A stretch of DNA of 37,197 nt from Bacteroidota bacterium (lineage in GTDB: Bacteria; Bacteroidota; Bacteroidia; Bacteroidales; B39-G9), in the NCBI GenBank assembly GCA_015222055.1, contig JADFUR010000016.1, forward strand, positions 1 through 37,197, read 5' to 3'. This document shows positions 21,888 through 37,075 of this stretch, piece by piece. How positions within the stretch are numbered: the first letter of the stretch is position 1; the number at the start of each line of letters is the position of its first letter. The notes beneath the pieces are model-generated. The model made no database searches, had not been told where the DNA came from, and was given only the letters and a program-made list of their open reading frames with translations. The translations under genes and the position numbers were made by a program.

Positions 21888-21927
21888 CAGAATATTAATG
21901 TTGTTAAAAAAATATTGCATTATTACT

Positions 21928-22539
21928 ATGATAAAAAATATTGGTTGCTCAATATTAGCAGGAGGCAAAAATTCAAGAATTGGTGGTAGAAATAAAGCAC
22001 TAATTGAAATTGACAATTGCTCTATATTGAAAAATAATACGAAAGTATTGAGATCAATTTTTGAGGAAATTATATTGGTGACAAATTCTCCGGAACAATA
22101 TTCTTGTGTTCAAAATGATTACACAATTATTTCTGATGAAATAAAAGGGGTTGGTCCTCTTGGAGGAATATATTCTGCTTTATTAAAAACAAATAAAGAA
22201 GCAATATTTTTTGTGCCATGTGACATGCCTTTTTTAAATACTAAAGTAATCAGTCAGGTAATTGAAGCATATAAAAATAATAATTATGATGCTGTTGTGC
22301 CACGAATAAAAAATAATATTGAGCCTTTGCATGCAATTTATAGAAAAGCTATCTACAAAAAATTATTTACCCATATAACAGAAGGTTGTAACTATTCAAT
22401 TAGAAATTTTTATAAAAAAATTAATGTGCATTATTTAGATTTAGAAGACAGCTTATTTAATAATAAAGTTTTTACTAATATTAATACTCATACTGATTTA
22501 AAGATTGCAATTGACTTGAATAACTCATCAACTCAGTAA
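21928..22539 (+). CDS. mobA: Molybdenum cofactor guanylyltransferase MobA
   Basis: A 203-residue nucleotidyltransferase that attaches GMP to molybdopterin, giving the MGD form used by formate dehydrogenases. The N-terminal signature is CSILAGGKNSRIGGRNKALI, where LAGG, the Arg and the Lys bind GTP. GPLGGIYSALL, then FFVPCDMPFL (metal-binding Asp) and DAVVPRIKNNIEPLHAIYRK follow the family order. I chose the ATG at 21928; an upstream in-frame ATG at 21898 lies almost at the predicted transcription start. fdhD begins seven bases after its stop, so the gene is probably dedicated to the formate dehydrogenase encoded 9 kb downstream. Confidence 0.92.
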   Translation: MIKNIGCSILAGGKNSRIGGRNKALIEIDNCSILKNNTKVLRSIFEEIILVTNSPEQYSCVQNDYTIISDEIKGVGPLGGIYSALLKTNKEAIFFVPCDMPFLNTKVISQVIEAYKNNNYDAVVPRIKNNIEPLHAIYRKAIYKKLFTHITEGCNYSIRNFYKKINVHYLDLEDSLFNNKVFTNINTHTDLKIAIDLNNSSTQ

Positions 22540-22545
22540 ATTGAA

Positions 22546-23319
22546 ATGGAACAATTTGAGATAATTAAAATAAAAGGTGCTAGTCAAGAGACAATTACCG
22601 ATGTTGTTACTGAAGAAATATCATTAAGAATTGACGTAAATAATAACGAGATTGCAACACTTCTCTCTTCTAAAGAAAATCTTTATGAATTAACAATAGG
22701 TTATTTGTTTAGTTCTGAGATAATAAAAAATATTGACGATATTGAACAACACAATGTCTTTAGTTTAACGTCAAATGATTTTGTATCTAATATAACTACA
22801 AAAGAATTAGTCCAATTTCAAAAATCAGGAAATAAAAAAGTTAAATCTGTTGGTTGTGGTGATGCATATTCTTTTGTGAAAGAAAATTATAAAATAAAAG
22901 AATTTGCTAACAATCTAAAAATTAAAACAACGGAGATTGCAGATATGATGAGGGCGTTTCAGTCAGAATCTAAGGTTTTTCAAAAAACTGGAGGTGTGCA
23001 TAGTTCTGCAATTGTTGAAAATAATGAAATTATTGTTTTTCGTGAAGATATTGGAAGACATAATGCTATTGATAAGGTGATTGGTAATTTATTAATAAAT
23101 AAATTTTCTTTTGATAATAAGATTATTTTAACAAGTGGCAGAATATCGTCAGAAATTTTGCATAAAATTATTATGTGTAAAATACCAATTTTGGTTTCAA
23201 GGAGTGCACCAACAAACAAGGCAATAAAAATTTGTAGAAATTTAAATATTACTTTAATAGGTTTCGTCAGAGGCGATAAAATGAATATTTACAGCGGACA
23301 ACAACGAATTATATATTAA
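22546..23319 (+). CDS. fdhD: Formate dehydrogenase sulfurtransferase FdhD
   Basis: A 257-residue FdhD, which passes sulfur from IscS to the Mo-bis-MGD cofactor and is needed for active formate dehydrogenase. Conserved parts are the ELTIGYLFSSEII stretch, the GGVHSSAIV motif, FREDIGRHNAIDKVIGNLL, IILTSGRISSEIL and ILVSRSAPTNKAI. The catalytic loop reads SVGCGDAYSF: the first Cys of the E. coli CxxC pair is present, while the second is replaced, as in several other lineages. The gene sits between mobA and a MOSC gene, and its presence strongly supports a real formate dehydrogenase in this genome. Confidence 0.95.
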   Translation: MEQFEIIKIKGASQETITDVVTEEISLRIDVNNNEIATLLSSKENLYELTIGYLFSSEIIKNIDDIEQHNVFSLTSNDFVSNITTKELVQFQKSGNKKVKSVGCGDAYSFVKENYKIKEFANNLKIKTTEIADMMRAFQSESKVFQKTGGVHSSAIVENNEIIVFREDIGRHNAIDKVIGNLLINKFSFDNKIILTSGRISSEILHKIIMCKIPILVSRSAPTNKAIKICRNLNITLIGFVRGDKMNIYSGQQRIIY

Positions 23320-23321
23320 TT

Positions 23322-23789
23322 ATGAATGAGTATAATTCGATTTCTGATAAGACAGGAAATGTATATAGTATAAATTGCTGTGAAAAACAATTACAAAAAA
23401 GTAATGTTAAATTAAAAAGTCCAGAGAGTAAAAATTCAATAACCCTTTTTAAAAGCAATGATAAAACAATTAGTTTGCTGTCAATTGAAAATATTATAAG
23501 ACAAAAAAATTGTTCGCGTTTAAATAAAAAAGATTATAGGTTTAAACCTCTTGAATTTGGAGAAAATATAACTACAAAAGGGATTGATTTATCAACACTG
23601 GAAGTTGGAAATGTAATTAAAGTTGGAAATGAAGTGAAATTAGAAATTTTTAAAATTGGGAAAAATTGTTACAAATATTGTCCATTATATATTAAAATTT
23701 CGGGATGTGAAATATCAAAAGAGTTTATATTCTGTAGAGTAATTATTGAAGGAAATATTAATATTGGAGATAGGATTGAAGTCTTATAA
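23322..23789 (+). CDS. MOSC domain protein (molybdenum cofactor associated)
   Basis: A 155-residue MOSC-domain protein. MOSC domains bind the molybdenum cofactor or carry sulfur. The strongest matches are in the second half: PLEFGENITTKGIDLSTLEV, then VGNVIKVGNEVKLEIFKIGK, Cys residues in KNCYKYCPLYI, and the closing GNINIGDRIEVL. The first half (residues 8-70) is divergent and lacks the usual EGHGIEGDAH stretch, so it may be a reduced member. It starts two bases after the fdhD stop and is clearly in the same operon. It is most likely an accessory factor for formate dehydrogenase cofactor insertion or storage. Confidence 0.85.
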   Translation: MNEYNSISDKTGNVYSINCCEKQLQKSNVKLKSPESKNSITLFKSNDKTISLLSIENIIRQKNCSRLNKKDYRFKPLEFGENITTKGIDLSTLEVGNVIKVGNEVKLEIFKIGKNCYKYCPLYIKISGCEISKEFIFCRVIIEGNINIGDRIEVL

Positions 23790-25984: not shown

Positions 25985-26016
25985 TTTGTTTTGATTATTT
26001 AAAAGAAATATCTTTG
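25985..26016 (+). promoter_or_regulatory. Promoter of the formate dehydrogenase operon
   Basis: TTTG (25985-25988), then 20 bases, then TATCTTTG (26009-26016): a near-perfect Bacteroidetes promoter. Transcription should begin near 26023. This rules out the in-frame TTG at 26014 as a start and leaves a leader of about 50 bases before the first gene. Confidence 0.72.
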
Positions 26017-26073: not shown

Positions 26074-26418
26074 ATGGAAGTTAAAGAAGTTGTTAGTATA
26101 TTGAATGCAAAAGTAATTTGCGGAAAGCAATATTTAGATAAAAGTGTTGATTTCGGCTTTGCTTCAGATTTGATGAGCGATGTCTTAACCCTAGATGCAG
26201 ATAACATTCTGTTAATAACAGGATTGTCAAATTTGCAAACAATCAGAACTCTTGAAATGTCAGATATTTGCGTTGTTATTTTAGCAAGAGATAAAAAGGC
26301 AAGTAAAGGCATGATAGAATTAGCAATTGAAAGTGATTTGCTTATTATTGAAACCGAAAAATCGATGTTTAAAACTGCTGGCTTACTTTTTGAAGCTGGA
26401 TTAAAATCTGTATATTGA
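26074..26418 (+). CDS. DRTGG-domain protein 1
   Basis: A 114-residue protein that is essentially one DRTGG domain. Family traits include EVKEVVSILNAKVICG, FGFASDLMSDVLTLDADNILLITG, VVILARDKKASKGMIELA and DLLIIETEKSMFKTAGLL. The DRTGG domain also occurs in phosphotransacetylase-like proteins and beside CBS domains, and is thought to bind nucleotides or small ligands. Stand-alone versions often accompany iron-only hydrogenase clusters. It is the first gene of the operon. Its stop overlaps the next ATG in a TGATG arrangement. I chose ATG 26074 because the longer TTG start falls in the promoter. It is a probable signalling component. Confidence 0.8.
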   Translation: MEVKEVVSILNAKVICGKQYLDKSVDFGFASDLMSDVLTLDADNILLITGLSNLQTIRTLEMSDICVVILARDKKASKGMIELAIESDLLIIETEKSMFKTAGLLFEAGLKSVY

Positions 26419-26867
26419 TGGTTGAGGAAACAATTAGTTTGCAATATAAAATAGACGGAGGAGATTTTAAAAAGGCTGGATACGCTTCATCTCAGATAAA
26501 AAAGAGGCTTCAGAAACTTAATATTCATCCAAAAGTAATTAAAAAAATTGTAATCGCACTTTACGAAGCAGAAATTAATGTTGTCGCATACGCTTACGAT
26601 GCAGTTATTAGAATTGAGATAGGTAATGAAACAGTAAAAGTTAAAATTAAAGATAACGGACCTGGAATTCAAGATATTAATCAAGCAATGGAAAAGGGTT
26701 ACTCAACAGCATCAAGTAAAATTAGAGAAATGGGATTTGGTGCCGGAATGGGTCTTTCTAACATGAAAAAGAATTCAGATAAATTCGACATAAAAAGTAA
26801 AATAAACGAAGGAACAGAAATAAATATTATTAATTATAGAATTAATATTAAAAATGAAAATAATTGA
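26418..26867 (+). CDS. RsbW/SpoIIAB-like anti-sigma factor kinase (HATPase)
   Basis: A 149-residue GHKL ATPase of the anti-sigma serine kinase type. The N box is in IVIALYEAEINVVAYAY, the G1 box in VKIKDNGPGI, and the G2 part in GFGAGMGLSNMKKN. No phosphoacceptor His or dimerisation domain is present, so it is not a two-component kinase. Known relatives phosphorylate an antagonist protein on Ser/Thr, and a SpoIIE/PP2C phosphatase reverses it. Such a phosphatase is encoded at 34007-35191. The gene overlaps its neighbours on both sides (by 1 and 14 bases). No antagonist (STAS) protein is visible here, so the target is unknown. Confidence 0.85.
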   Translation: MVEETISLQYKIDGGDFKKAGYASSQIKKRLQKLNIHPKVIKKIVIALYEAEINVVAYAYDAVIRIEIGNETVKVKIKDNGPGIQDINQAMEKGYSTASSKIREMGFGAGMGLSNMKKNSDKFDIKSKINEGTEINIINYRINIKNENN

Positions 26868-27192
26868 TTTGGTTAATAAATTAGGCTTAGAAATACTAAG
26901 TGGTGAAAATGGACTAAACCGAACTGTTTCAGGTGGTTATACCTCAGACTTGCTTAGTGATGTTATTGCTAACGCTCAAGAAAATAATATTTGGATAACT
27001 TTACAAACACATAAAAATGTTATGGCAATAGCTTCTTTAAAAGATTTGGCTGCTATTATTCTTATTAATGGTAACAAACCCGAAGAAGATACAAGGGAAC
27101 AAAGTAATATTGAAAATATTCCAATATTGGGCACAAAAGGAAATGCATTTGAGACATCTGCAAAAATATATGAATTACTCAATAACGAATAA
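26854..27192 (+). CDS. DRTGG-domain protein 2
   Basis: A 112-residue second DRTGG-type protein. KIIDLVNKLGLEILSG, then GGYTSDLLSDVIANAQENNIWITLQTHKN and ASLKDLAAIILINGN, followed by NIPILGTKGNAFETSAKIYELL, align in order with the first DRTGG protein but share few identical residues. This type is commonly found in hydrogenase-linked gene clusters. It overlaps the RsbW-like gene by 14 bases, so the two are translationally coupled. Paralogous DRTGG proteins flanking a kinase suggest a multi-component sensor or scaffold. Confidence 0.78.
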   Translation: MKIIDLVNKLGLEILSGENGLNRTVSGGYTSDLLSDVIANAQENNIWITLQTHKNVMAIASLKDLAAIILINGNKPEEDTREQSNIENIPILGTKGNAFETSAKIYELLNNE

Positions 27193-27215
27193 AAATAATA
27201 TCTTTGAGTTTATTT

Positions 27216-27956
27216 ATGAAAACATACAGAGCAGATTTTCATATACATACGGTCTTGTCACCTTGTGGTGATTTAGATATGAGCCCTAAGAATATTATTA
27301 AAAGAGCAAAAGAAAAAAAATTAGATATAATAGGAATAACTGACCATAATAGCACAAAACAATGTGCCGTTATGAAAAAAATAGGTAATGAAAATGGGAT
27401 TTTTGTTCTTACAGGTGTAGAGATAACAACTAAAGAAGAAGCCCATTGCCTTGCGTTCTTTGAAAATAAAGAAAAATTATTAAAATTTCAGAATTATATT
27501 GAACAGTATTTGCCCAACATTAAAAACAATGTTAATTTGTTTGGATATCAGGTTGTTGTTGATGAAAATGACAATATTATTGAACAAATTGACAGCTTGC
27601 TTATTTCAGCAATTAGTCAGAGTATAAGTCAGATTGAAGAAAAAGTTCATAGCTTAGAAGGTTTATTTATTCCTGCTCATATAAATAAATTAAAAAATAG
27701 TATAATAAGTCAATTAGGATTTATACCACAAGACCTTAATATAGATGCATTAGAAATTTCAAAACGTACGACAAAAAAGAAATTTTTAGAAAAAAACAAT
27801 TATTTAAAACAACATTCTTTTATACAAAGTTCTGATGCTCATTATATCGAAAATATTGGAGACGTTTCAACAAAAATAAAAATGCGACGAATAAGCTTTA
27901 ACGAAATAAAAAAGGCTTTGGCAAATCAAGATGGAAGAACAACAATTGTTGAATAA
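27216..27956 (+). CDS. PHP-domain phosphoesterase
   Basis: A 246-residue protein with a polymerase and histidinol phosphatase (PHP) metal-dependent fold. The HxH pair is in ADFHIHTVLSPCGDLDMSP, the second motif in IIGITDHNSTKQC, then GVEITTKEEAHCLAFF, PAHINK, and a closing SDAHYIENIG. These supply the usual His and Asp metal ligands. Substrates in this subgroup (TrpH-like) may be nucleotides or phosphate esters. PHP proteins of this type recur beside hydrogenase-linked HATPase and DRTGG genes. I begin at the ATG at 27216; the upstream TTG at 27204 adds only four residues. The next gene starts 8 bases after its stop. Confidence 0.87.
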   Translation: MKTYRADFHIHTVLSPCGDLDMSPKNIIKRAKEKKLDIIGITDHNSTKQCAVMKKIGNENGIFVLTGVEITTKEEAHCLAFFENKEKLLKFQNYIEQYLPNIKNNVNLFGYQVVVDENDNIIEQIDSLLISAISQSISQIEEKVHSLEGLFIPAHINKLKNSIISQLGFIPQDLNIDALEISKRTTKKKFLEKNNYLKQHSFIQSSDAHYIENIGDVSTKIKMRRISFNEIKKALANQDGRTTIVE

Positions 27957-27964
27957 TTAGTAAA

Positions 27965-28507
27965 ATGAAAAATTTATCATTACATATATTAGATATCATT
28001 CAAAATTCAATAAGAGCTAAAGCTAATTTAATTGAATTAGAAATATTAGAAAATTTGAAAGAAAACATTTTTCAGATTGTAATAAAAGATAATGGCACTG
28101 GTATTGAAAAAGATAAGTTAAAAGGAATATTAGATCCTTACTTTACATCAAGAACAACAAGAAATGTTGGTTTAGGATTATCTCTTTTAAAACAAAATGC
28201 CGAAAGAACAGGCGGTTTTCTTAAAATTTATTCAAAATTAGGTAAAGGCACAGTTGTAAAAACTTTGTTCAAATATAATAATATAGACAGACCAGTGTTA
28301 GGCGATATTTCCGGAGTAGTTACTTTGGTAGTAGCATCTAATCCTAGCATTGAATTTCTTTATAAACACAAAACAGATAAAGGAGAATTTTTTTTTAACT
28401 CAAAAGAGATAAAGAGAATATTAGAGAATGTAGCTATTAATGAGCCCAAAGTAATTTTTTTCTTAAAAGAAATGATAAAAGAAAATTTGCAAAACATTAA
28501 ACTATAA
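27965..28507 (+). CDS. Stand-alone HATPase_c (histidine kinase-like ATPase) protein
   Basis: A 180-residue GHKL ATPase without sensor or HisKA domain. N-box residues are in HILDIIQNSIRAKANLIELE, the G1 box in IVIKDNGTGIEKDKLKGI, and the lid and G2 motif in YFTSRTTRNVGLGLSLLKQNAE. Then follow GKGTVVKTLFKYNNIDRPVLGD and a C-terminal extension of about 70 residues. Homologues lie directly before the small ferredoxin and the NuoF/HydB gene in bifurcating hydrogenase operons (for example in Clostridium thermocellum, from memory). It may act as a kinase partner for the adjacent redox sensor. No sign of damage. Confidence 0.85.
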   Translation: MKNLSLHILDIIQNSIRAKANLIELEILENLKENIFQIVIKDNGTGIEKDKLKGILDPYFTSRTTRNVGLGLSLLKQNAERTGGFLKIYSKLGKGTVVKTLFKYNNIDRPVLGDISGVVTLVVASNPSIEFLYKHKTDKGEFFFNSKEIKRILENVAINEPKVIFFLKEMIKENLQNIKL

Positions 28508-28536: not shown

Positions 28537-28935
28537 ATGGGAAAAATAAAGACATTGGCTGATTTGAAAAATCTTAAAACAGATTTGCAGTCAAAAATTA
28601 ATTTGAGAGAAAAAGGCATTAGTCCTGAAAAACTAGTTCAAATAAAAGTTGCAATGGCAACTTGCGGTATTGCATCCGGAGCAAAAGAAATTATGGACTT
28701 CCTTATTGATGAATTAGACAAGCAGTCAATAAATGCAGTAGTAACTCAAACAGGTTGTATGGGGTATTGTTATGCAGAACCAACAATTGAAGTTACCCTA
28801 CCAGGTAATGCTCCAATTGTATTTGGTTATGTTGACAACAACAAAGCCTCTGAGATAATTGAGAAGTATATTAAAAAAGGTGAAATCGTTGATGGAGTTT
28901 TGCCAGTTAATTATGAGACTATTGACAAAAAATAA
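28537..28935 (+). CDS. Small [2Fe-2S] thioredoxin-like ferredoxin
   Basis: A 132-residue protein with a C-terminal thioredoxin-like ferredoxin fold of the type found next to HydB/NuoF. Cys ligands are visible at 43 (MATCGIASGAKEI), 74 and 78 (QTGCMGYCYAEP). The fourth Cys expected five residues after Cys43 is absent, as in several relatives from hydrogenase clusters, so cluster binding is probable but not certain. The first 35 residues are charged and helical. Eleven bases separate it from the NuoF-type gene. It probably carries electrons to or from the flavoprotein complex. Confidence 0.85.
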   Translation: MGKIKTLADLKNLKTDLQSKINLREKGISPEKLVQIKVAMATCGIASGAKEIMDFLIDELDKQSINAVVTQTGCMGYCYAEPTIEVTLPGNAPIVFGYVDNNKASEIIEKYIKKGEIVDGVLPVNYETIDKK

Positions 28936-28946
28936 AGAAGAAAATA

Positions 28947-30740
28947 ATGACAAAAAATAAAATTAATATTCTTGTTTGTGGAGGAACAGGTTGTCGAGCA
29001 TCTAACAGTGAGACAATAATGGAGAACCTTAAACAAGAATTAGAAAACAACGGATTAGAAGAGCAAGTTAGTGTTGTAAAAACAGGATGCTTTGGTTTTT
29101 GTGAAAAAGGACCAATAGTAAAAATAATGCCTGATAACACTTTTTACACTCGAGTTAAACCCGAAGATGCCAAAGAAATTATTGAAGAGCATGTTATAAA
29201 AGGAAGAAAAGTAAGACGATTGCTATACGAAGACCCTGAAACAAAAGAACATATTAGTGATTCAAAACATATGGGCTTTTACAGAAAGCAAATTAGAATT
29301 GCTCTTCGTAACTGTGGTTTTATTAACCCTGAAAAAATTGAAGAATATATTGCAAGAGATGGTTACGATGCATTAGGAAAATGTGTAACTGAAAAAACGC
29401 CTAAAGAAGTAATTGATGAAATAAAATTATCTGGACTAAGAGGCCGTGGTGGTGGTGGTTTTCCTACTGGTTTGAAGTGGGATTTTGCCAGCAGAAATAA
29501 AGCAGACCAAAAATATGTAGTTTGTAATGCAGATGAGGGAGATCCTGGTGCATTTATGGATAGATCAATACTTGAAGGCGATCCTCATACCATACTTGAG
29601 GCAATGGCAATTTGTGGTTATTGTATTGGAGCTTCAATAGGACTTGTTTATATTAGAGCAGAATATCCTTTAGCAATTGAGAGATTAAAAATAGCTATTG
29701 ATCAAGCTAGAGAATTCGGTCTTCTAGGTGATAATATTTTCGGTACAGATTTTAGTTTTGATGTTGAAATGAGATATGGTGCTGGAGCATTTGTTTGTGG
29801 TGAAGAAACAGCTCTTATCCATTCAATGGAAGGTGAAAGAGGTGAACCTACAGTAAAACCTCCATTCCCTGCAGAATCAGGATATAAAGGTAAGCCAAGT
29901 AATGTAAATAACGTTGAGACTTTTGCTAATATCCCTGTTATCATTAACAAAGGAGCCAACTGGTTTAATAAAATTGGTACAGAAAAGAGTAAAGGAACAA
30001 AAGTTTTTGCTCTTGCCGGAAAAATAAATAATGTTGGTCTTATTGAAGTTCCTATGGGAACAACATTACGCGAAGTAATATTTGAAATTGGAGGTGGTAT
30101 TAAAGATGGCAAAAAATTTAAGGCTGTTCAAACAGGTGGCCCTTCAGGAGGTTGCTTAACATCTTCTTTTCTTGATACTCCTATCGATTATGACAACTTA
30201 ATAGCTGCCGGCTCAATGATGGGCTCTGGAGGTATGATTGTTATGGATGAAGATAATTGTATGGTTTCTATTGCTAAATTTTATCTTGAATTTACATGTG
30301 AAGAATCTTGCGGTAAATGTGTTCCTTGTAGGGTTGGAAACAAACGTCTTTGGGAAATTTTAAATAAAATTACTAAAGGAGACGGAACAATGGAGGATCT
30401 TGATTTATTGAAAAATTTAAGCAATGTAATTAAAGATACTGCATTATGTGGATTAGGTCAAACATCTCCAAACCCAGTACTTTCAACCCTTGATAATTTT
30501 TGGGATGAGTATGTAGCTCACGTTGTTGACAAACGATGTCCTGCTGGAGAATGTAGAGCTTTACTACATTATGTAATTGACCCTGAAAAATGTGTTGGTT
30601 GTACTGCTTGTGCAAGAGCTTGCCCTGCAGGTGCAATTTCTGGAACTGTTAAACACGCACACAGTATTGACCTTACTAAATGTATTAAATGTGGTGCATG
30701 TATGACGAAATGTAAATTTGGGGCTATTAGTAAAAAATAA
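28947..30740 (+). CDS. NADH-binding flavoprotein subunit (NuoF/HydB type)
   Basis: A 597-residue flavin subunit that exchanges electrons with NAD(P)H. An N-terminal thioredoxin-like [2Fe-2S] domain has Cys 11, 16, 48 and 52. The NuoF core then supplies GLRGRGGGGFPTGLKW and CNADEGDPGAFMDR (FMN/NADH site) and FVCGEETALIHSMEG. Its [4Fe-4S] site is ESCGKCVPCRVG plus a Cys near 499-505. The C-terminus adds two ferredoxin-type clusters, CVGCTACARACPAG and CIKCGACMTKCKFG. This three-part architecture is that of HydB in bifurcating hydrogenases and of related NAD-linked formate dehydrogenases. It is cytoplasmic, with no signal peptide. Confidence 0.94.
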   Translation: MTKNKINILVCGGTGCRASNSETIMENLKQELENNGLEEQVSVVKTGCFGFCEKGPIVKIMPDNTFYTRVKPEDAKEIIEEHVIKGRKVRRLLYEDPETKEHISDSKHMGFYRKQIRIALRNCGFINPEKIEEYIARDGYDALGKCVTEKTPKEVIDEIKLSGLRGRGGGGFPTGLKWDFASRNKADQKYVVCNADEGDPGAFMDRSILEGDPHTILEAMAICGYCIGASIGLVYIRAEYPLAIERLKIAIDQAREFGLLGDNIFGTDFSFDVEMRYGAGAFVCGEETALIHSMEGERGEPTVKPPFPAESGYKGKPSNVNNVETFANIPVIINKGANWFNKIGTEKSKGTKVFALAGKINNVGLIEVPMGTTLREVIFEIGGGIKDGKKFKAVQTGGPSGGCLTSSFLDTPIDYDNLIAAGSMMGSGGMIVMDEDNCMVSIAKFYLEFTCEESCGKCVPCRVGNKRLWEILNKITKGDGTMEDLDLLKNLSNVIKDTALCGLGQTSPNPVLSTLDNFWDEYVAHVVDKRCPAGECRALLHYVIDPEKCVGCTACARACPAGAISGTVKHAHSIDLTKCIKCGACMTKCKFGAISKK

Positions 30741-30759: not shown

Positions 30760-33462
30760 ATGGAACTAATAAAATTTAAAATAGACGGCAAAATTGTTGA
30801 AGTTGAAAAAGGCACAAGTGTTTTAGAAGCTGCTCGTCAAAATAATATTAAGATACCTACTCTTTGTTATCTTGAAGATATGAATGGCAAGAAAATTTTC
30901 GATCAACCTGGTTCATGTCGAATGTGTGTTGTCGAAATTAAAGGTCGTAGAAATCTTGCCCCTTCATGCGTTACTAAAGTTGCTCCAGATATTGAAGTTA
31001 TAACAAATAACGAAAGAGTTCATAATGCTAGAAAAACAGTACTTGACTTAATACTTTCAAATCATCCCCTCGATTGTTTAACCTGCGAAAAAGCTGGTAA
31101 TTGTCAGCTTCAAGATTTATGTTATGAGTTTGGCTTGAAAGGAACTTCGTTTGAAGGTGCTAGAACCAATTTACCTATTGATGATAGTAATCAATTTTTT
31201 ATCAGAGATATGAATAAATGTATTCTCTGTAGAAAATGTGTTAATATTTGTAGATATTTTCAAGGAACTTCAGCAATCACTTTTAGTGGTCGTGGTTTTG
31301 ATACTCATGTGTCAGCAGCTTTCGATTATGATATAGAAACATCAACCTGTGTATCTTGCGGAAACTGTGTTTCTGTTTGTCCAACAGGAGCTCTTATTCC
31401 TAAAATTAAAGAAAAATTTAGATCATGGGAGGTTGAAAGAACCAAAACTACCTGTACTTATTGCGGAGTTGGTTGTCAAATGAATCTTTTAACAAAAGAC
31501 AATAAGGTTGTTGGTGTTGAGCCTGTTAAAGGTGGAGTAAACAACGGATTACTTTGCGTAAAAGGTAAATTTGGTTATGAGTTTATAAACCATGCTGATA
31601 GATTAAAAACTCCGTTAATTAAAAGAAACGGAAAATTTGAAGAAGCTACTTGGGAAGAAGCGTATAAGCTTATTGCTAAAAAAACAAACGAGATTAAACA
31701 AAAATATGGTAGCGATTCAATAGCAGGCCTTTCATCTGCAAGATGTACAAATGAGGAAAATTATCTTTTCCAAAAAATGATTAGAGCTGTTATAGGAACT
31801 AACAACGTTGACCATTGTGCACGCTTATGCCATGCTTCAACTGTTGCTGGTTTAGCAACAACTCTTGGTAGTGGTGCAATGACTAACAGTATTGAAGAGG
31901 TAATAGATTCTGAAGTTATTTTTGTAACAGGTTCAAATACGACAGACACACACCCTGTTATTGGTGCTTATATGCGTCAAGCTAAAGACAAAGGTGCAAA
32001 AATTATTGTAGCTGAGCCACGTAAAATTGATCTTGCTAATGATGCTGACGTATTTCTGCAAATTAAACCGGGAACAAATGTTGCTATGTTTAATGGATTT
32101 ATGAACGTAATAATTAATGAAGGTCTTGAAGCTAAAGAATATATTAAAGAGAGAACTGAAAACTACGAAGAACTTAAAGAAGTAGTTGCAAAATACACAC
32201 CTGAAGTAGTTGCAGAAATTTGTAAAATAGATGCTGAAGATCTTATCAAAGCAGCATGTATTTATGGTAAAGCAAGTAAAGCTTCCATTTTTTATGCAAT
32301 GGGAGTGACCCAGCATAGCACAGGTACTCAAGGTGTTATGAGTAGTTCAAACCTTGCATTATTATGTGGGAATATTGGTATTGAATCAGCAGGTGTTAAT
32401 CCTTTGAGAGGTCAAAATAATGTTCAAGGTGCTTGTGATATGGGTGCTCTTCCAGCTGATTACCCTGGTTACCAAAAAGTTTTCAAACCTGAAATTCAAG
32501 AAAAATTCGAAAAAGCTTGGGGTGCTAAATTAAGCGACAAAGGTGGCTTAACTGTAACAGAAATAATCCCTAAAGCTGGCGAAGGTGAGATTAAGATGAT
32601 TTATATTATGGGAGAAAATCCAATGATTTCAGATCCTGATATTAATCATGTTGAGACTTCTATAAAAAATCTTGAGTTTTTAGTTGTACAAGACATCTTT
32701 ATGTCTGAAACAGCTGAGCTTGCTGATGTTGTTTTACCTGCATCAACTTTTGCAGAAAAAGATGGAACATTTACAAGTACAGAACGAAAAGTTCAAAGAA
32801 TTAGAGAAGCAATTAAACCTCTGGGCGATTCAAAACCAGACTGGAAAATATTGATGGAAGTTATGAAAGAACTCGGTTATGATAAAAATTATAGCGGTGC
32901 TTCTGATATAATGGATGAAATTGCAAGTTTAACACCTTCTTACGGAGGAATATCTTTTGAAAGGATAGAAAATGATGGTATTCAATGGCCTTGTCCTACA
33001 AAAGACCACCCAGGTACTAAATTTTTACATAAAGATAAATGTGCCAGAGGAAAGGGATTGTTTAAACCAGCAGAATATATGCCAAGTGCAGAACTTCCCG
33101 ATAAAGAATATCCTTTTGTTCTAACAACAGGACGAATTCTTTATCATTATCATACCAAAACAATGACAGGTAGAGTTGAGGGATTAAATAATCTTTATCC
33201 TGAATCTTTTATTGAGATAAATCCTGATGATGGAAGAAAACTTGGAATTAAAGATGGTGATAAAGTAAGAGTAAGTTCAAGAAGGGGTGAAATAATTTCA
33301 AAAGCTGTATTAACAGAAAAAGGAGTTGAAGGCATCACTTTTATGCCATTTCACTTTGCTGATGGAGCCGCTAATATTCTTACAAATAATGCTTTAGATC
33401 CAATTGCGAAAATTCCTGAATTAAAAGTATGTTCGTGTAATATTGTAAAGGAGGAAAATTAA
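30760..33462 (+). CDS. fdhA: Formate dehydrogenase large (molybdopterin) subunit, Cys type
   Basis: A 900-residue cytoplasmic enzyme oxidising formate to CO2 or reducing CO2. Its N-terminal 210 residues resemble HydA/NuoG: [2Fe-2S] (Cys 36, 53, 56, 70), a His-type [4Fe-4S] (His102, Cys 106, 109, 115), and two ferredoxin clusters (Cys 154-164 and 197-207). The molybdopterin domain binds [4Fe-4S] through Cys 232, 235, 239 and 266. Cys357, followed by His358, in DHCARLCHASTVAGL occupies the selenocysteine position of E. coli FdhF. Further motifs are SNTTDTHPV and NPLRGQNNVQGACDMGALP. The C-terminal domain has YHTKTMTGRVEGLN. No Tat signal is present. It replaces the HydA gene expected between NuoF and NuoE. 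An AGAGGA run precedes the ATG. Confidence 0.95.
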   Translation: MELIKFKIDGKIVEVEKGTSVLEAARQNNIKIPTLCYLEDMNGKKIFDQPGSCRMCVVEIKGRRNLAPSCVTKVAPDIEVITNNERVHNARKTVLDLILSNHPLDCLTCEKAGNCQLQDLCYEFGLKGTSFEGARTNLPIDDSNQFFIRDMNKCILCRKCVNICRYFQGTSAITFSGRGFDTHVSAAFDYDIETSTCVSCGNCVSVCPTGALIPKIKEKFRSWEVERTKTTCTYCGVGCQMNLLTKDNKVVGVEPVKGGVNNGLLCVKGKFGYEFINHADRLKTPLIKRNGKFEEATWEEAYKLIAKKTNEIKQKYGSDSIAGLSSARCTNEENYLFQKMIRAVIGTNNVDHCARLCHASTVAGLATTLGSGAMTNSIEEVIDSEVIFVTGSNTTDTHPVIGAYMRQAKDKGAKIIVAEPRKIDLANDADVFLQIKPGTNVAMFNGFMNVIINEGLEAKEYIKERTENYEELKEVVAKYTPEVVAEICKIDAEDLIKAACIYGKASKASIFYAMGVTQHSTGTQGVMSSSNLALLCGNIGIESAGVNPLRGQNNVQGACDMGALPADYPGYQKVFKPEIQEKFEKAWGAKLSDKGGLTVTEIIPKAGEGEIKMIYIMGENPMISDPDINHVETSIKNLEFLVVQDIFMSETAELADVVLPASTFAEKDGTFTSTERKVQRIREAIKPLGDSKPDWKILMEVMKELGYDKNYSGASDIMDEIASLTPSYGGISFERIENDGIQWPCPTKDHPGTKFLHKDKCARGKGLFKPAEYMPSAELPDKEYPFVLTTGRILYHYHTKTMTGRVEGLNNLYPESFIEINPDDGRKLGIKDGDKVRVSSRRGEIISKAVLTEKGVEGITFMPFHFADGAANILTNNALDPIAKIPELKVCSCNIVKEEN
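33448..33454 (+). promoter_or_regulatory. Strong Shine-Dalgarno sequence before nuoE
   Basis: AAGGAGG lies about 9 bases before the ATG at 33464. Most genes in this window have no such site, as is normal for Bacteroidetes. A weaker AGAGGA precedes fdhA. Confidence 0.6.
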
Positions 33463-33463
33463 A

Positions 33464-33949
33464 ATGACAGAGCTTAAAAATAAATTAAACTCAACACAAA
33501 TTGATCAAATTAAAGAGATTTGTAAATCCTTTAATAATGAAAAAGGAGAATTAATAAATATCTTGCATAAAACACAGAGTGTTTTTGGATACTTACCTGC
33601 TGAAATTCAAGAAGTGATAGCAGAGGAGTTGAAGGAATCTGCTGCAAAAGTTTATGGTGTTGTTACTTTTTACTCATTTTTTACAATGCAGCCAAAAGGG
33701 AAATATCCAGTTTCTGTTTGTTTGGGTACTGCATGTTATGTTAGAGGTGCGGAAAAAATTCTTGAAGAATTTGAGAAACAACTTAATATTGAGGTTGGAG
33801 AAACAACTCCCGATGGTAAATTTTCATTAACTTGCTTGCGTTGTATAGGTGCTTGCGGGTTAGCTCCTGTTGCTATGGTTGGTGATAAAACATACGGCAG
33901 ACTAACTCCTGAGGATGTTAAGGGCATTATTGATGAATATAAAGATTAG
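33464..33949 (+). CDS. NuoE-type [2Fe-2S] subunit (NADH dehydrogenase 24 kDa / HydC-like)
   Basis: A 161-residue protein that binds one [2Fe-2S] cluster and partners NuoF. The helical start leads to LINILHKTQSVFGYLPAEIQ and VYGVVTFYSFFTMQPKGKY. The Cys ligands are 86 and 91 (VCLGTACYVRGA) and 127 and 131 (CIGACGLAPVAMV); Cys124 is an extra Cys before the second pair. Its ATG follows the fdhA stop by one base and is preceded by a full AAGGAGG Shine-Dalgarno sequence (33448-33454), rare for this phylum. It is the last gene of the operon. Confidence 0.94.
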   Translation: MTELKNKLNSTQIDQIKEICKSFNNEKGELINILHKTQSVFGYLPAEIQEVIAEELKESAAKVYGVVTFYSFFTMQPKGKYPVSVCLGTACYVRGAEKILEEFEKQLNIEVGETTPDGKFSLTCLRCIGACGLAPVAMVGDKTYGRLTPEDVKGIIDEYKD

Positions 33950-33975: not shown

Positions 33976-34008
33976 AAAAAGGTGCTTGAGAAATTGAGCA
34001 CCCTTTTT
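33976..34008. terminator. Terminator between nuoE and the phosphatase gene
   Basis: AAAAAGGTGCT (33976-33986) pairs with AGCACCcTTTTT (33997-34008) with one bulged C. It sits between two convergent genes and overlaps the stop codon of the phosphatase gene on the minus strand. Confidence 0.85.
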
Positions 34009-35191
34009 ATATAAACTGTAAATCAACCTGTTTAAGAAATCGAGTTTCGAGTAATTTGGCTATTCTTTTAACAACTGTTCTTCTAATCTCAAGTTCAACA
34101 GGTAGACTAGGATCTTGATGAGCTATATTAATTCTCGTTCCAATAACAAAACTTATTTGGTCACTTTCTTTTAACAACTTAACTATTTTATCTGCAGGAC
34201 CTTTTCCTAAGATGTCGTTATTATCATGTTTTTTTAATATTTCAGTAACTTTGCCAAGAGTAAGTATTCCCTCTGTAACTAAATCAATATTTTGCATAAA
34301 GGAAATTGGTGGTAAATCTTCATCTTCAAATTCAAAACTTTCTTCAATTTTATAATTTAGTTCCCTCGCAATAATATCACTTGTAGTTGCACCACAAATA
34401 ATTTTTTTTCCGGTAAAATTTTTAACTATTGTTGATAGTTTTTTATCGTTGTCTTTTTCATATGGTGGGCCAGTGCAGATAAGCAATTTACGTGGTTCAC
34501 GATAATATATAACTGCACAACTAGTATCATCTTTAAGATGAAAATTATCGTTGAGATTAGCTCTGTTTACAACTTTATCTGCCAATTTAAAGGCTGATGT
34601 AAAATTATCCCCTTTTACGATGTCTTGAATGAAAGATTTAACCTTTTTATCTCCCCAGCCAAATAAAAAATTTTCTTTACCCATTCCTGATTGAGTAACT
34701 CCGTCAGAGTAAAAAATAACTCGATCTTCTTTTTGTGGATAAAAACTGCAACTTCGTAATTCTGTAGTTGATTTGTTTTCATTTTCGAGAATTATGCAGT
34801 GCCATTGAGGATTGAAAATTTCAGAACCTCTTAAAATAACACATTCGGGATTGTCATATTCTAAAATACTTGTCTTCCCGTCATATTCAATATCAATAAT
34901 TGTGAAAGTGGAGTAGCTTATTTTTCTTTCACTACACACTGGCAAGGTTTTCATAATTATTTCTGCAATCTTATTAAAATCTTTATGTTCTTTTGTGAAA
35001 TTAAGAGTCATTGTAGAAGTTAGTGTAGCGAGTATGTTAGCTTTCACTCCATGACCCAGTCCATCAGATAAGACAGCAATAATTCTATTATCTTCATTTA
35101 ATCTTCGTGACAAAAAGACATCACCACAAATTCGTTCTCCATCATGATTTTTTTGCTTGCAATTTATTTCTATGTAAAATTTATCATCCAT
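34007..35191 (-). CDS. SpoIIE/PP2C-type protein serine phosphatase
   Basis: A 394-residue protein. Residues 1-235 form a SpoIIE-type (PPM) phosphatase: ICGDVFLSRR near residues 21-30, then VLSDGLGHGVKAN (metal-binding Asp and Gly), VIFYSDGVTQSG and LKDDTSCAVIYY. The final 160 residues (from RKLLICTGPPYEKDN) are an extension I do not recognise; it contains FTGKKIICGATTSDIIAREL and a helical end. This extension recurs in phosphatases beside hydrogenase sensors (from memory). It lies 15 bases after the sensor gene, in the same operon. A plausible partner is the RsbW-like kinase at 26418-26867, whose phosphorylation it would reverse. Confidence 0.9.
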   Translation of the reverse strand: MDDKFYIEINCKQKNHDGERICGDVFLSRRLNEDNRIIAVLSDGLGHGVKANILATLTSTMTLNFTKEHKDFNKIAEIIMKTLPVCSERKISYSTFTIIDIEYDGKTSILEYDNPECVILRGSEIFNPQWHCIILENENKSTTELRSCSFYPQKEDRVIFYSDGVTQSGMGKENFLFGWGDKKVKSFIQDIVKGDNFTSAFKLADKVVNRANLNDNFHLKDDTSCAVIYYREPRKLLICTGPPYEKDNDKKLSTIVKNFTGKKIICGATTSDIIARELNYKIEESFEFEDEDLPPISFMQNIDLVTEGILTLGKVTEILKKHDNNDILGKGPADKIVKLLKESDQISFVIGTRINIAHQDPSLPVELEIRRTVVKRIAKLLETRFLKQVDLQFI

Positions 35192-35206: not shown

Positions 35207-37075
35207 CTATTTCTTTTTACCTTTTTGTGATTTGTGAAACTCAATAATTGAATTTAGCATTTGCTCGGTTTCAGAAGCTCCTTCTCCCAATAAGAATCCA
35301 ATTTTTTGAACAAGTTCTAAATTTTTGTCAATAACATCAGTAACACGCTTTACCACTTCCTCTTTTCTAATTTCGGGTGAACTCATATCCCTAACAATAA
35401 CACCAACAATTTTATTCTTTTTTATTGTGAATATCGAAGCATTAAACATATCTTCTTCAAATAGTACATCTCTGTTCAAAATATTTTCATCATTTTTCAA
35501 CACATAAGAAAATAGATTGTAAAAATCGTAGGGTAACAAAATTTTAACATCAGCTCCTTTTAATCCAGGTATAACTTCATTTATTTCTTTTGCATCTTCT
35601 CCAAGCATGGTAATAAAACTTTTGTTTGCTTGAATTATTTTTAAGTCTTTATCAATAATAACAACTCCGGCGTGTAATTTATGCAACATGGTTGATGTCA
35701 TTTTCGATGCTTCTTTGGCGGCTTCTTCTTCTTGTCTTGCTTTACGTTCTGAGGTTTTTAAAGCTTCTTGTGCCTGTGCTAATTTTTCATTTGTAGCTTT
35801 CAGGGCTCTAATATAATTGTGATTGTTTCTTAGTGTTGCAGTTGTACACATTTCTGTTTTGGCAAGTCCTTTTGTAACAGCAATTGCAAAGTTTACACAT
35901 GAATCATACCCGCAAGAACCACAGCTCAAACCTTTTCCGTTATCGTGTACTCCAATAGATTTTAGAACATCATTAATTTTATCTTTCGAAGGCATTTTTA
36001 TTCTTTGGTCATCAGCTTTAAAAGTCCTGCTAAAATCTAAATTTATGTATTTACTGATTTGTTCTTCCCATTTTTCAATGCCAATTTTTTTTAAGCGTTT
36101 TTTTGCATATTTAACTACCATCGAACGTTTAATAAATTTATTCCCGGTTGATGACATACCCGGTCCCATTAAACAACCGTTGCAAAAAAATAAATTGTAG
36201 TTTTGTCGAATAGAAGAAATGTTATTATGAAAAGCAGTAAGAGAAGACACCATGTCTTTACTTCCTTCAACTGTTGTTATTTTTCTTGTTAATAAGTTTT
36301 CGTTGATATCCGCAGCCTGCAATATGCCATTACTTATAGGATATAGAGAACCCTTATTGCCAATAGGAGGATCAAAATCAGAATATTCCAATTTGCTTTC
36401 AAGAATATTATATTCTTTAAACAATTTTCGTAATTCTTCAAATGTTAGAACTGAATCTACTTTACCATCGTCATCAAATAACAATGCTTCATTTTTGTTT
36501 TGAATGCACGGACCTATATAAACAACTTTAATATTCTTGCCATATTTTTTGTGAACAACTTTTGCAGTTGCAATCATAGGAGATACAATTGGTGCAATAT
36601 TATCTACTAATTCAGGTTGGAATTTTTCAATGTATGCAACTACACTTGGACAATTGGCAGAGATATAATATTTCCCCTTATAATCGCTAATTAATTCAAG
36701 ATATTTTTTGGCTACTAAATCAATACCAAAAGAAACTTCGTTAACGTATTTAAAACCTAGGGTTTTAATCATATTAACAAATTTTCTATAATCTGTTATG
36801 TCCTCAAATTCACCTGATATACTTGGTGCTACAATAGCAACAGCTTCATTATCTGAATTTAATATGGCCTTGGTTTCTTCAATTGAACTTCGATATTGCA
36901 TAGCACCCTGTGAACATACATTGACGCAATTACCACAGCCAATGCATCTTTCTGGAATAACACTTACGTGTTTGTCGCTAATTTTAACCTCAATAGCTTT
37001 TACAGGACAAACTCTAACACAAGCATAACAAAGTTTGCATTTGTCTTTTATTGTTGATATAAGTGGATGACTCAT
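35207..37075 (-). CDS. Sensory [FeFe]-hydrogenase-like PAS protein (HydS/HsfB type)
   Basis: A 622-residue protein. Residues 1-60 bind two [4Fe-4S] clusters (Cys 13, 16, 19, 23 and 44, 47, 50, 54). The H-cluster domain (about 75-345) keeps Cys 142, 190, 298 and 301, but its motifs are altered: ANCPSV in place of TSCCP, so the proton-relay Cys is Asn; GPCIQNKNE, where the usual Lys is shifted or replaced; and CNGCLMGPG, one residue shorter than CxxGC. An Fe-S domain follows (Cys 385, 388, 393, 410), then a coiled coil (about 425-460) and a PAS domain (about 460-575). This fits a sensory rather than catalytic hydrogenase (groups C/D). No HydEFG maturase genes are in the window. It precedes the phosphatase gene by 15 bases. 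Confidence 0.9.
   Translation of the reverse strand: MSHPLISTIKDKCKLCYACVRVCPVKAIEVKISDKHVSVIPERCIGCGNCVNVCSQGAMQYRSSIEETKAILNSDNEAVAIVAPSISGEFEDITDYRKFVNMIKTLGFKYVNEVSFGIDLVAKKYLELISDYKGKYYISANCPSVVAYIEKFQPELVDNIAPIVSPMIATAKVVHKKYGKNIKVVYIGPCIQNKNEALLFDDDGKVDSVLTFEELRKLFKEYNILESKLEYSDFDPPIGNKGSLYPISNGILQAADINENLLTRKITTVEGSKDMVSSLTAFHNNISSIRQNYNLFFCNGCLMGPGMSSTGNKFIKRSMVVKYAKKRLKKIGIEKWEEQISKYINLDFSRTFKADDQRIKMPSKDKINDVLKSIGVHDNGKGLSCGSCGYDSCVNFAIAVTKGLAKTEMCTTATLRNNHNYIRALKATNEKLAQAQEALKTSERKARQEEEAAKEASKMTSTMLHKLHAGVVIIDKDLKIIQANKSFITMLGEDAKEINEVIPGLKGADVKILLPYDFYNLFSYVLKNDENILNRDVLFEEDMFNASIFTIKKNKIVGVIVRDMSSPEIRKEEVVKRVTDVIDKNLELVQKIGFLLGEGASETEQMLNSIIEFHKSQKGKKK

Follow-up and report, generated by a model that had tools for sequence, protein, structure and literature searches.

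A DRTGG-RsbW-PHP-ATPase gene cassette accompanying HydB-type enzyme complexes in Bacteroidales, and its candidate role in a serine-phosphorylation switch

Here, we describe a block of five genes in a 37,197-nucleotide stretch of DNA from a Bacteroidota bacterium (Bacteroidales, B39-G9; GenBank assembly GCA_015222055.1, contig JADFUR010000016.1, positions 1 to 37,197), hereafter the window. The original prediction, made from the sequence alone, had placed five open reading frames for DRTGG, RsbW-like, DRTGG, PHP and HATPase proteins at this locus as a signalling block ahead of enzyme genes, and both the coordinates and the families agree with our profile matches. Comparison with other genomes leads us to regard the block as very probably a cassette with a regulatory or accessory function, dedicated to complexes of the HydB type. 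Its genes and the putative promoter are as follows.

25985-26016, + strand: possible Bacteroidetes-type promoter, TTTG-N20-TATCTTTG (also given as TTTG-N20-TANNTTTG)
26074-26418, + strand: DRTGG1, candidate switch protein with D32-L-M-S35 (Pfam PF07085, e-value 1.2e-6; AlphaFold2 (AF2) model with a predicted local distance difference test score (pLDDT) of 97)
26415-26867, + strand: RsbW/SpoIIAB-like serine kinase, start TTG 26415 or ATG 26418 (spIIAB, 6.4e-17)
26854-27192, + strand: DRTGG2, second DRTGG protein, with D32-L-L-S35 (Pfam, 5.6e-7)
27216-27956, + strand: PHP-domain phosphoesterase (Pfam PHP, 1.2e-9)
27965-28507, + strand: GHKL/GHL ATPase (HATPase_c, 5.7e-14; AF2 model MutL-like)

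The block is followed on the same strand by the enzyme genes.

28537-28935, + strand: HydD-like thioredoxin-like [2Fe-2S]-type protein (PF01257 weak, below the cut-off)
28947-30740, + strand: HydB/BfuB, NADH/FMN subunit with a C-terminal 2x[4Fe-4S] region (Pfam Complex1_51K, NADH_4Fe-4S, Fer4)
30760-33462, + strand: FdhA occupying the HydA position, with an N-terminal Fe-S domain resembling that of HydA (Fdh-alpha, 901 bits)
33464-33949, + strand: HydC/NuoE (59-73% identity to block-linked Bacteroidales HydC)
33981-34002, + strand: terminator-like hairpin closing the operon

Operon structure

From DRTGG1 through RsbW, DRTGG2 and PHP to the HATPase gene, the intergenic gaps are -4, -14, 23 and 8 nt, and they continue at 29, 11, 19 and 1 nt to HydD, HydB, FdhA and HydC. 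Given gaps of -14 to 29 nt all the way through HydC, a single transcript is likely, and the five block genes together with HydD-HydB-FdhA-HydC make up one apparent operon. The overlapping or nearly touching block genes of the original prediction (gaps of -14 to 23 nt) are thus confirmed, but the single promoter that it assigned to them is plausible and unproven, because the motif 5' of DRTGG1, a single match in the window, has to be read against 2.4 matches expected there by chance. A sigma-70 promoter scan gave a result at chance level.

Conservation of the cassette and of its enzyme partner

Orthologues of RsbW were found in 18 of 60 relatives of the same order, and a scan of a contig collection added 80 Bacteroidales loci, which were the best-scoring relatives and are hence biased to near kin. 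Throughout these approximately 100 loci, the gene order in Bacteroidales is DRTGG1-RsbW-(H-cluster Fe-S protein of ~450 amino acids (aa))-DRTGG2-PHP-HATPase, a constancy that rules out chance, and the genes of a bifurcating [FeFe]-hydrogenase, HydD-HydB-HydA-HydC, usually come next on the 3' side, contig permitting. The H-cluster protein, named HfsA-like here from its domain content alone, is present in 93 of the 96 other Bacteroidales loci. Its gene normally separates RsbW from DRTGG2 and is missing from the window copy, a point overlooked in the original prediction; an orthologue-level HfsA-like gene was not found in the whole genome either. The gene is also missing in two other loci, among them G037, where HydD-HydB-HydA-HydC are found apart from the block, on a small contig that is probably its continuation. 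We rejected as a rule that loss of the HfsA-like gene goes with the exchange of hydrogenase for formate dehydrogenase (FDH), G037 having the hydrogenase without the gene.

In a sample of 395 genomes from the phylum, the block RsbW occurred in 7, with HydB adjoining in 6 and HydABC on another contig in 1; counted at equal thresholds, HydB of this type was scored in 4 of the 7 genomes with the block RsbW vs 1 of the 388 others (p=1.7e-7, kinship ignored). The A subunit has a NuoG-like Fe-S N-terminus in three of the seven, followed by an HdrA2 domain in both that were scanned. In two more genomes of the sample, RsbW carries two CBS domains as a fusion and the H-cluster protein is missing; here, too, an A subunit with a NuoG-like N-terminus comes after the block, the HdrA2 domain being confirmed in one while the other contig ends within the gene. 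The CBS-fused kinases (L203 8710-9639 and L204 9640-10572) suggest adenylate-type sensing as an alternative input. Outside Bacteroidota, the distribution is represented by one clostridial locus (L196), the collection scan having returned close relatives only; in this clostridium, hydC-HATPase-hydD-hydB-hydA is divergent from DRTGG1-RsbW-(one unrelated gene)-HfsA-like-DRTGG2-PHP. Judged by gene content, the fixed partner of the block is the BfuB/HydB core and the catalytic subunit is what varies (HydA, HdrA2 or, here, FdhA), and the apparent sensor varies as well (the H-cluster protein, a CBS pair fused to RsbW or, as here, none). In Parabacteroides distasonis (L195 8632-12403), the full six-gene block lies beside gyrA, with no adjoining enzyme genes.

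HydD of the window is 56-75% identical to its counterpart in block-linked hydrogenase operons, and HydB is 72-82% identical to block-linked Bacteroidales HydB vs ~50% or less to NuoF of the ordinary FDH operons compared, which are without the block. For residues 1-215 of FdhA the nearest match is block HydA, at 46-52%; for residues 216-900 it is FdhA, at up to 56%. No H-cluster motifs were found in the protein, which likely combines a HydA-like N-terminus with an FDH remainder. In a tree, the N-terminus branched with block HydA (93/95); the alternative of grouping it with FdhA was not rejected (approximately unbiased test, p=0.167), so that a proven domain chimera could not be upheld. By its domains, the enzyme falls under Type 1 Fdh-Bfu as classified in PMC9304861, with electron bifurcation predicted.

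The presumed active-site residue of the window FdhA is Cys (CARLCH); related FdhA genes of other Bacteroidales (L133, L135, L138, L140, L141, L144) have one in-frame TGA each, probably for selenocysteine. Upstream of the block, MobA, FdhD and MOSC-like genes (window 21898-23789) fit cofactor supply for a formate dehydrogenase. Elsewhere in the genome, on C86 (L199 6109-12271), NuoE and NuoF accompany a 1238-aa GltD-like flavin and molybdopterin fusion, possibly another bifurcating complex, and similar sets occur in G055, G037 and G297.

The RsbW kinase and its candidate partners

RsbW matches HATPase_c_2 (3.6e-10) in addition to spIIAB, its best match in the Protein Data Bank is SpoIIAB (1til, 1e-11), and the catalytic Glu and Asn of SpoIIAB (E51 and N55) are invariant in ~104 sequences together with the DxGxG and GxGxG motifs. 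The original prediction had read the block and a SpoIIE phosphatase on the other strand as a partner-switching circuit and a possible new kind of control. Its parts are indeed at hand, namely a SpoIIAB-type kinase with catalytic residues and ATP motifs kept and an intact SpoIIE-type phosphatase of the PP2C class, but the system is not peculiar to this operon, occurring at ~100 loci. The prediction was also right that no STAS-type antagonist or sigma factor is visible. There is no STAS gene in the operon; the three that a search for STAS proteins elsewhere in the genome recovered are all on other contigs, where they adjoin a hybrid histidine kinase gene, rnz and a CheY-like gene. No sigma factor of the SigB/F/G type exceeded the TIGR02980 cut-off in the genome (best 117 vs 234 bits), a result that covers this type of sigma factor alone. 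A linked STAS or SigB/F/G partner for RsbW was accordingly rejected after the operon and genome searches.

These data bear on classical partner switching, in which the partner bound by RsbW would be a sigma factor or STAS protein encoded elsewhere, and the DRTGG proteins would merely tune the outcome. The closeness of RsbW to SpoIIAB and the presence of three STAS genes speak for such a circuit, whereas the sub-threshold sigma factor scores and the unrelated surroundings of the STAS genes speak against it, as does the tight packing of the block, which at ~100 loci could not accommodate an internal STAS or sigma gene (the flanks were not systematically annotated); we consider it improbable.

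The original prediction had named a DRTGG protein or the enzyme itself as the possible substrate of the kinases. The former is reasonable, as Ser35 is conserved in both DRTGG proteins, but nothing was found that points to FdhA. Direct control of bifurcation through phosphorylation of HydB, HydC, HydD or FdhA would fit the close packing of the block with HydD-HydB in one operon at most loci; SpoIIAB-type kinases, however, use small dedicated substrates, and FdhA is an unlikely specific target because the same cassette serves HydA- and HdrA2-type enzymes. An enzyme subunit as substrate thus appears quite unlikely to us, and if there is a target, it is more likely to be the HydB/C/D core common to these enzymes, or a step in transcription, than FdhA.

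DRTGG proteins and the candidate phosphorylation site

Both DRTGG proteins pass the PF07085 cut-off of 25.2 bits (28.7 bits for DRTGG1 and 29.8 bits for DRTGG2), and the DRTGG1 model matches the DRTGG structure 2ioj with a template modelling (TM) score of 0.84. D32, L/M34 and Ser35 are conserved at >=99%, that is, in at least 99% of sequences (n=104 for DRTGG1, n=94 for DRTGG2), clostridial and HdrA-type loci included. In the model, Ser35 follows a strand and opens a short helix, and the phospho-Ser of STAS proteins is placed similarly. A Foldseek search with the model gave DRTGG domains, the N-terminus of HPr kinase and Mur-type ligases at the top, and STAS was not among the matches listed. 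In the DRTGG domains of Bacteroidota phosphotransacetylases, an Arg aligns to Ser35 (in a profile alignment of uncertain register), which suggests that the serine belongs to the cassette DRTGG family. On these grounds, Ser35 is a candidate phosphorylation site.

PHP and HATPase proteins

The metal-ligand motifs of the PHP protein (HxH, DHN, E69, H77, AH155 and DxH209) are intact and conserved in at least 93% of sequences (n=89). The HATPase protein has 180 aa, with HATPase_c, from residue 8, as its sole Pfam domain, and its AF2 model aligns with MutL 1nhh over 142 residues (model 1-166; Z 13.5). At the level of the fold, the model has a GHKL domain followed by a transducer-like domain, as in GHL ATPases, and an N-terminal helical hairpin is not present. 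From the model, the protein looks like a MutL-type GHL ATPase; a histidine kinase is not supported, given this fold and the missing dimerisation/phosphotransfer domain with its phospho-His, and the plural kinases of the original prediction reduce to one.

By position, this ATPase is the counterpart of Acetobacterium woodii HydE, and since HydE-like ATPases adjoin HydD, we retained an assembly or quality-control module as an alternative. In such a module, the MutL-like ATPase would act as a chaperone or clamp for HydB/HydC, and RsbW, DRTGG and PHP would gate the loading of FMN and Fe-S clusters. The ATPase gene is the block gene directly before HydD-HydB in most loci and stands beside HydD in the clostridial operon, and the modelled protein resembles MutL/GHL ATPases over the greater part of the chain. 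Against this alternative, Thermotoga maritima HydABC produced in Escherichia coli bifurcates when only a synthetic diiron cofactor is added (PMC7064455), so that such genes are not strictly needed; the chemistry of RsbW and SpoIIE fits signalling better, and the block can lie far from the enzyme genes. We judge this explanation unlikely, if worth keeping in view.

The SpoIIE phosphatase and a HydS-type sensor on the opposite strand

Two genes follow the operon on the opposite strand.

34007-35191, - strand: SpoIIE-type PP2C phosphatase (PF07228, 4.8e-11)
35207-37075, - strand: HydS-type protein combining an [FeFe]-hydrogenase domain with PAS; putative sensor of redox state or H2 (Fe_hyd_lg_C, 1.3e-41; PAS_8, 3.9e-5)

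The phosphatase that the original prediction had seen here is present and intact, with all Asp motifs in place (SDG at D43, SDG at D163, DD at 221-222), but the H-cluster/PAS gene paired with it had been overlooked. The latter encodes two [4Fe-4S] motifs, an [FeFe]-hydrogenase domain and a PAS domain, the layout of HydS/HfsB, and keeps all four H-cluster cysteines (C142, C190, C298 and C301, in the motifs SANCPS, GPC and CNGC). The position that serves proton transfer is Asn, as for the sensory form; in sensory [FeFe]-hydrogenases, Cys is rare at this position (PMC10055695). Judged by motifs, H-cluster cysteines combined with a PAS domain place the protein with sensory HydS (group C).

A C-terminal extension of the phosphatase of ~160 aa (window 34007-34510, - strand; ICGATTS..., EGILTLG..., HQDPSLP...) has no Pfam match; it is strongly conserved among HydS-linked phosphatases and might read the sensor or the substrate. 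Contig C11 of the same genome (L032 4978-13859) holds both of its extra HydS-SpoIIE pairs along with a monomeric-type [FeFe] hydrogenase, with NADPH-glutamate-synthase-like genes and an alcohol dehydrogenase gene as neighbours. In L035 (G055:C160), the block is followed by HydD, HydB and HydC, the last two without an intervening catalytic subunit; the G055 HydB, 81% identical, is nearly the closest to that of the window, and HydS and SpoIIE are beside the block, as in the window.

A tentative model of the switch

The reading that we favor, tentatively and with a little less than even confidence, is a redox-responsive serine-phosphorylation switch with a DRTGG substrate, a SpoIIE/HydS phosphatase branch and an output on the bifurcating core. 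RsbW would phosphorylate DRTGG1 and/or DRTGG2 on Ser35, and SpoIIE, presumably under the control of HydS with its H-cluster and PAS domain, would take the phosphate off again in response to changes in H2 or electron pressure. DRTGG would thereby fill the role held elsewhere by STAS proteins, and in its free or phosphorylated form it may act on the HydD-HydB-HydC core by altering how the core is expressed, how active it is or how it is assembled; the PHP phosphoesterase and the MutL-like ATPase would contribute accessory steps. In Thermoanaerobacterium saccharolyticum, loss of hfsA or of the PAS-hydrogenase gene hfsB by deletion leads to a shift in fermentation and to raised adhE, effects for which hfsC (phosphatase) and hfsD are needed (PMC5707799), which supports a regulatory role of HydS-type proteins.

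Several observations weigh against this model. Besides the window, 12 of 97 loci have HydS-SpoIIE genes in the neighbourhood of the block, but in most loci the two are unlinked, and two further HydS-SpoIIE pairs exist in the genome beyond that of the window, so that their pairing with the block is uncertain. The block itself is sometimes unlinked from the enzyme genes, one sampled genome has a HydB of this type without the block, and no DNA-binding domain was found in the block. Ser35, finally, could have a structural or ligand-binding role instead. The broader proposal, of a switch free of STAS and sigma factors that works via phosphorylated DRTGG, takes exchangeable sensors and controls the HydB core directly or indirectly whatever the catalytic subunit, is possible, and we advance it with corresponding reserve.

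Relation to known systems and significance

With RsbW/SpoIIAB-STAS-PP2C switching the cassette shares a SpoIIAB-type kinase with its catalytic residues, a SpoIIE-type phosphatase and a small partner encoded beside the kinase; it differs in having DRTGG for STAS, no cognate sigma factor found, an additional PHP protein and MutL-like ATPase, and, as sensors, an H-cluster/PAS protein, an HfsA-like protein or a CBS pair. The HydS/HfsABC systems of Ruminococcus albus and Thermoanaerobacterium, for which H2 sensing has been proposed (PMC5707799, PMC11837493, PMC8924675), likewise have an H-cluster and PAS gene beside a SpoIIE-type phosphatase, but the portions of these publications that were available make no mention of DRTGG, RsbW, PHP or ATPase proteins, and the neighbouring enzyme in the window is a formate dehydrogenase. 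Fdh-Bfu (Type 1) is likewise built on a BfuB/BfuC core, and its BfuA carries a pterin FDH domain where the H-cluster domain would otherwise be (PMC9304861); the available part of that survey treats the enzymes and does not describe the cassette, and HydB, HydC and HydD of the window are nearest to block-linked hydrogenase subunits. In the hydCEDBA cluster of A. woodii, the gene for a histidine-kinase-type ATPase (HydE) lies beside hydD (PMC3315566), and clostridial L196 is arranged likewise, whereas the window ATPase is modelled as a MutL-type GHL protein and no DRTGG, RsbW or PHP is reported for A. woodii.

The single pieces, named in public annotation, and the enzyme type are already known. 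No description of the DRTGG/RsbW/PHP/ATPase cassette was found in the open literature searched, prior mention being possible in subscription papers, and the cassette is apparently widespread and, as a unit, undescribed. Electron-bifurcating hydrogenases and formate dehydrogenases set the electron disposal of anaerobes, and their control is poorly known beyond the proposed role of HydS. A cassette kept across phyla and with three kinds of catalytic subunit may mark a missing regulatory layer, and it offers defined targets in one serine, one kinase and one phosphatase. If DRTGG does replace STAS, partner switching would be broader than the STAS/sigma paradigm.

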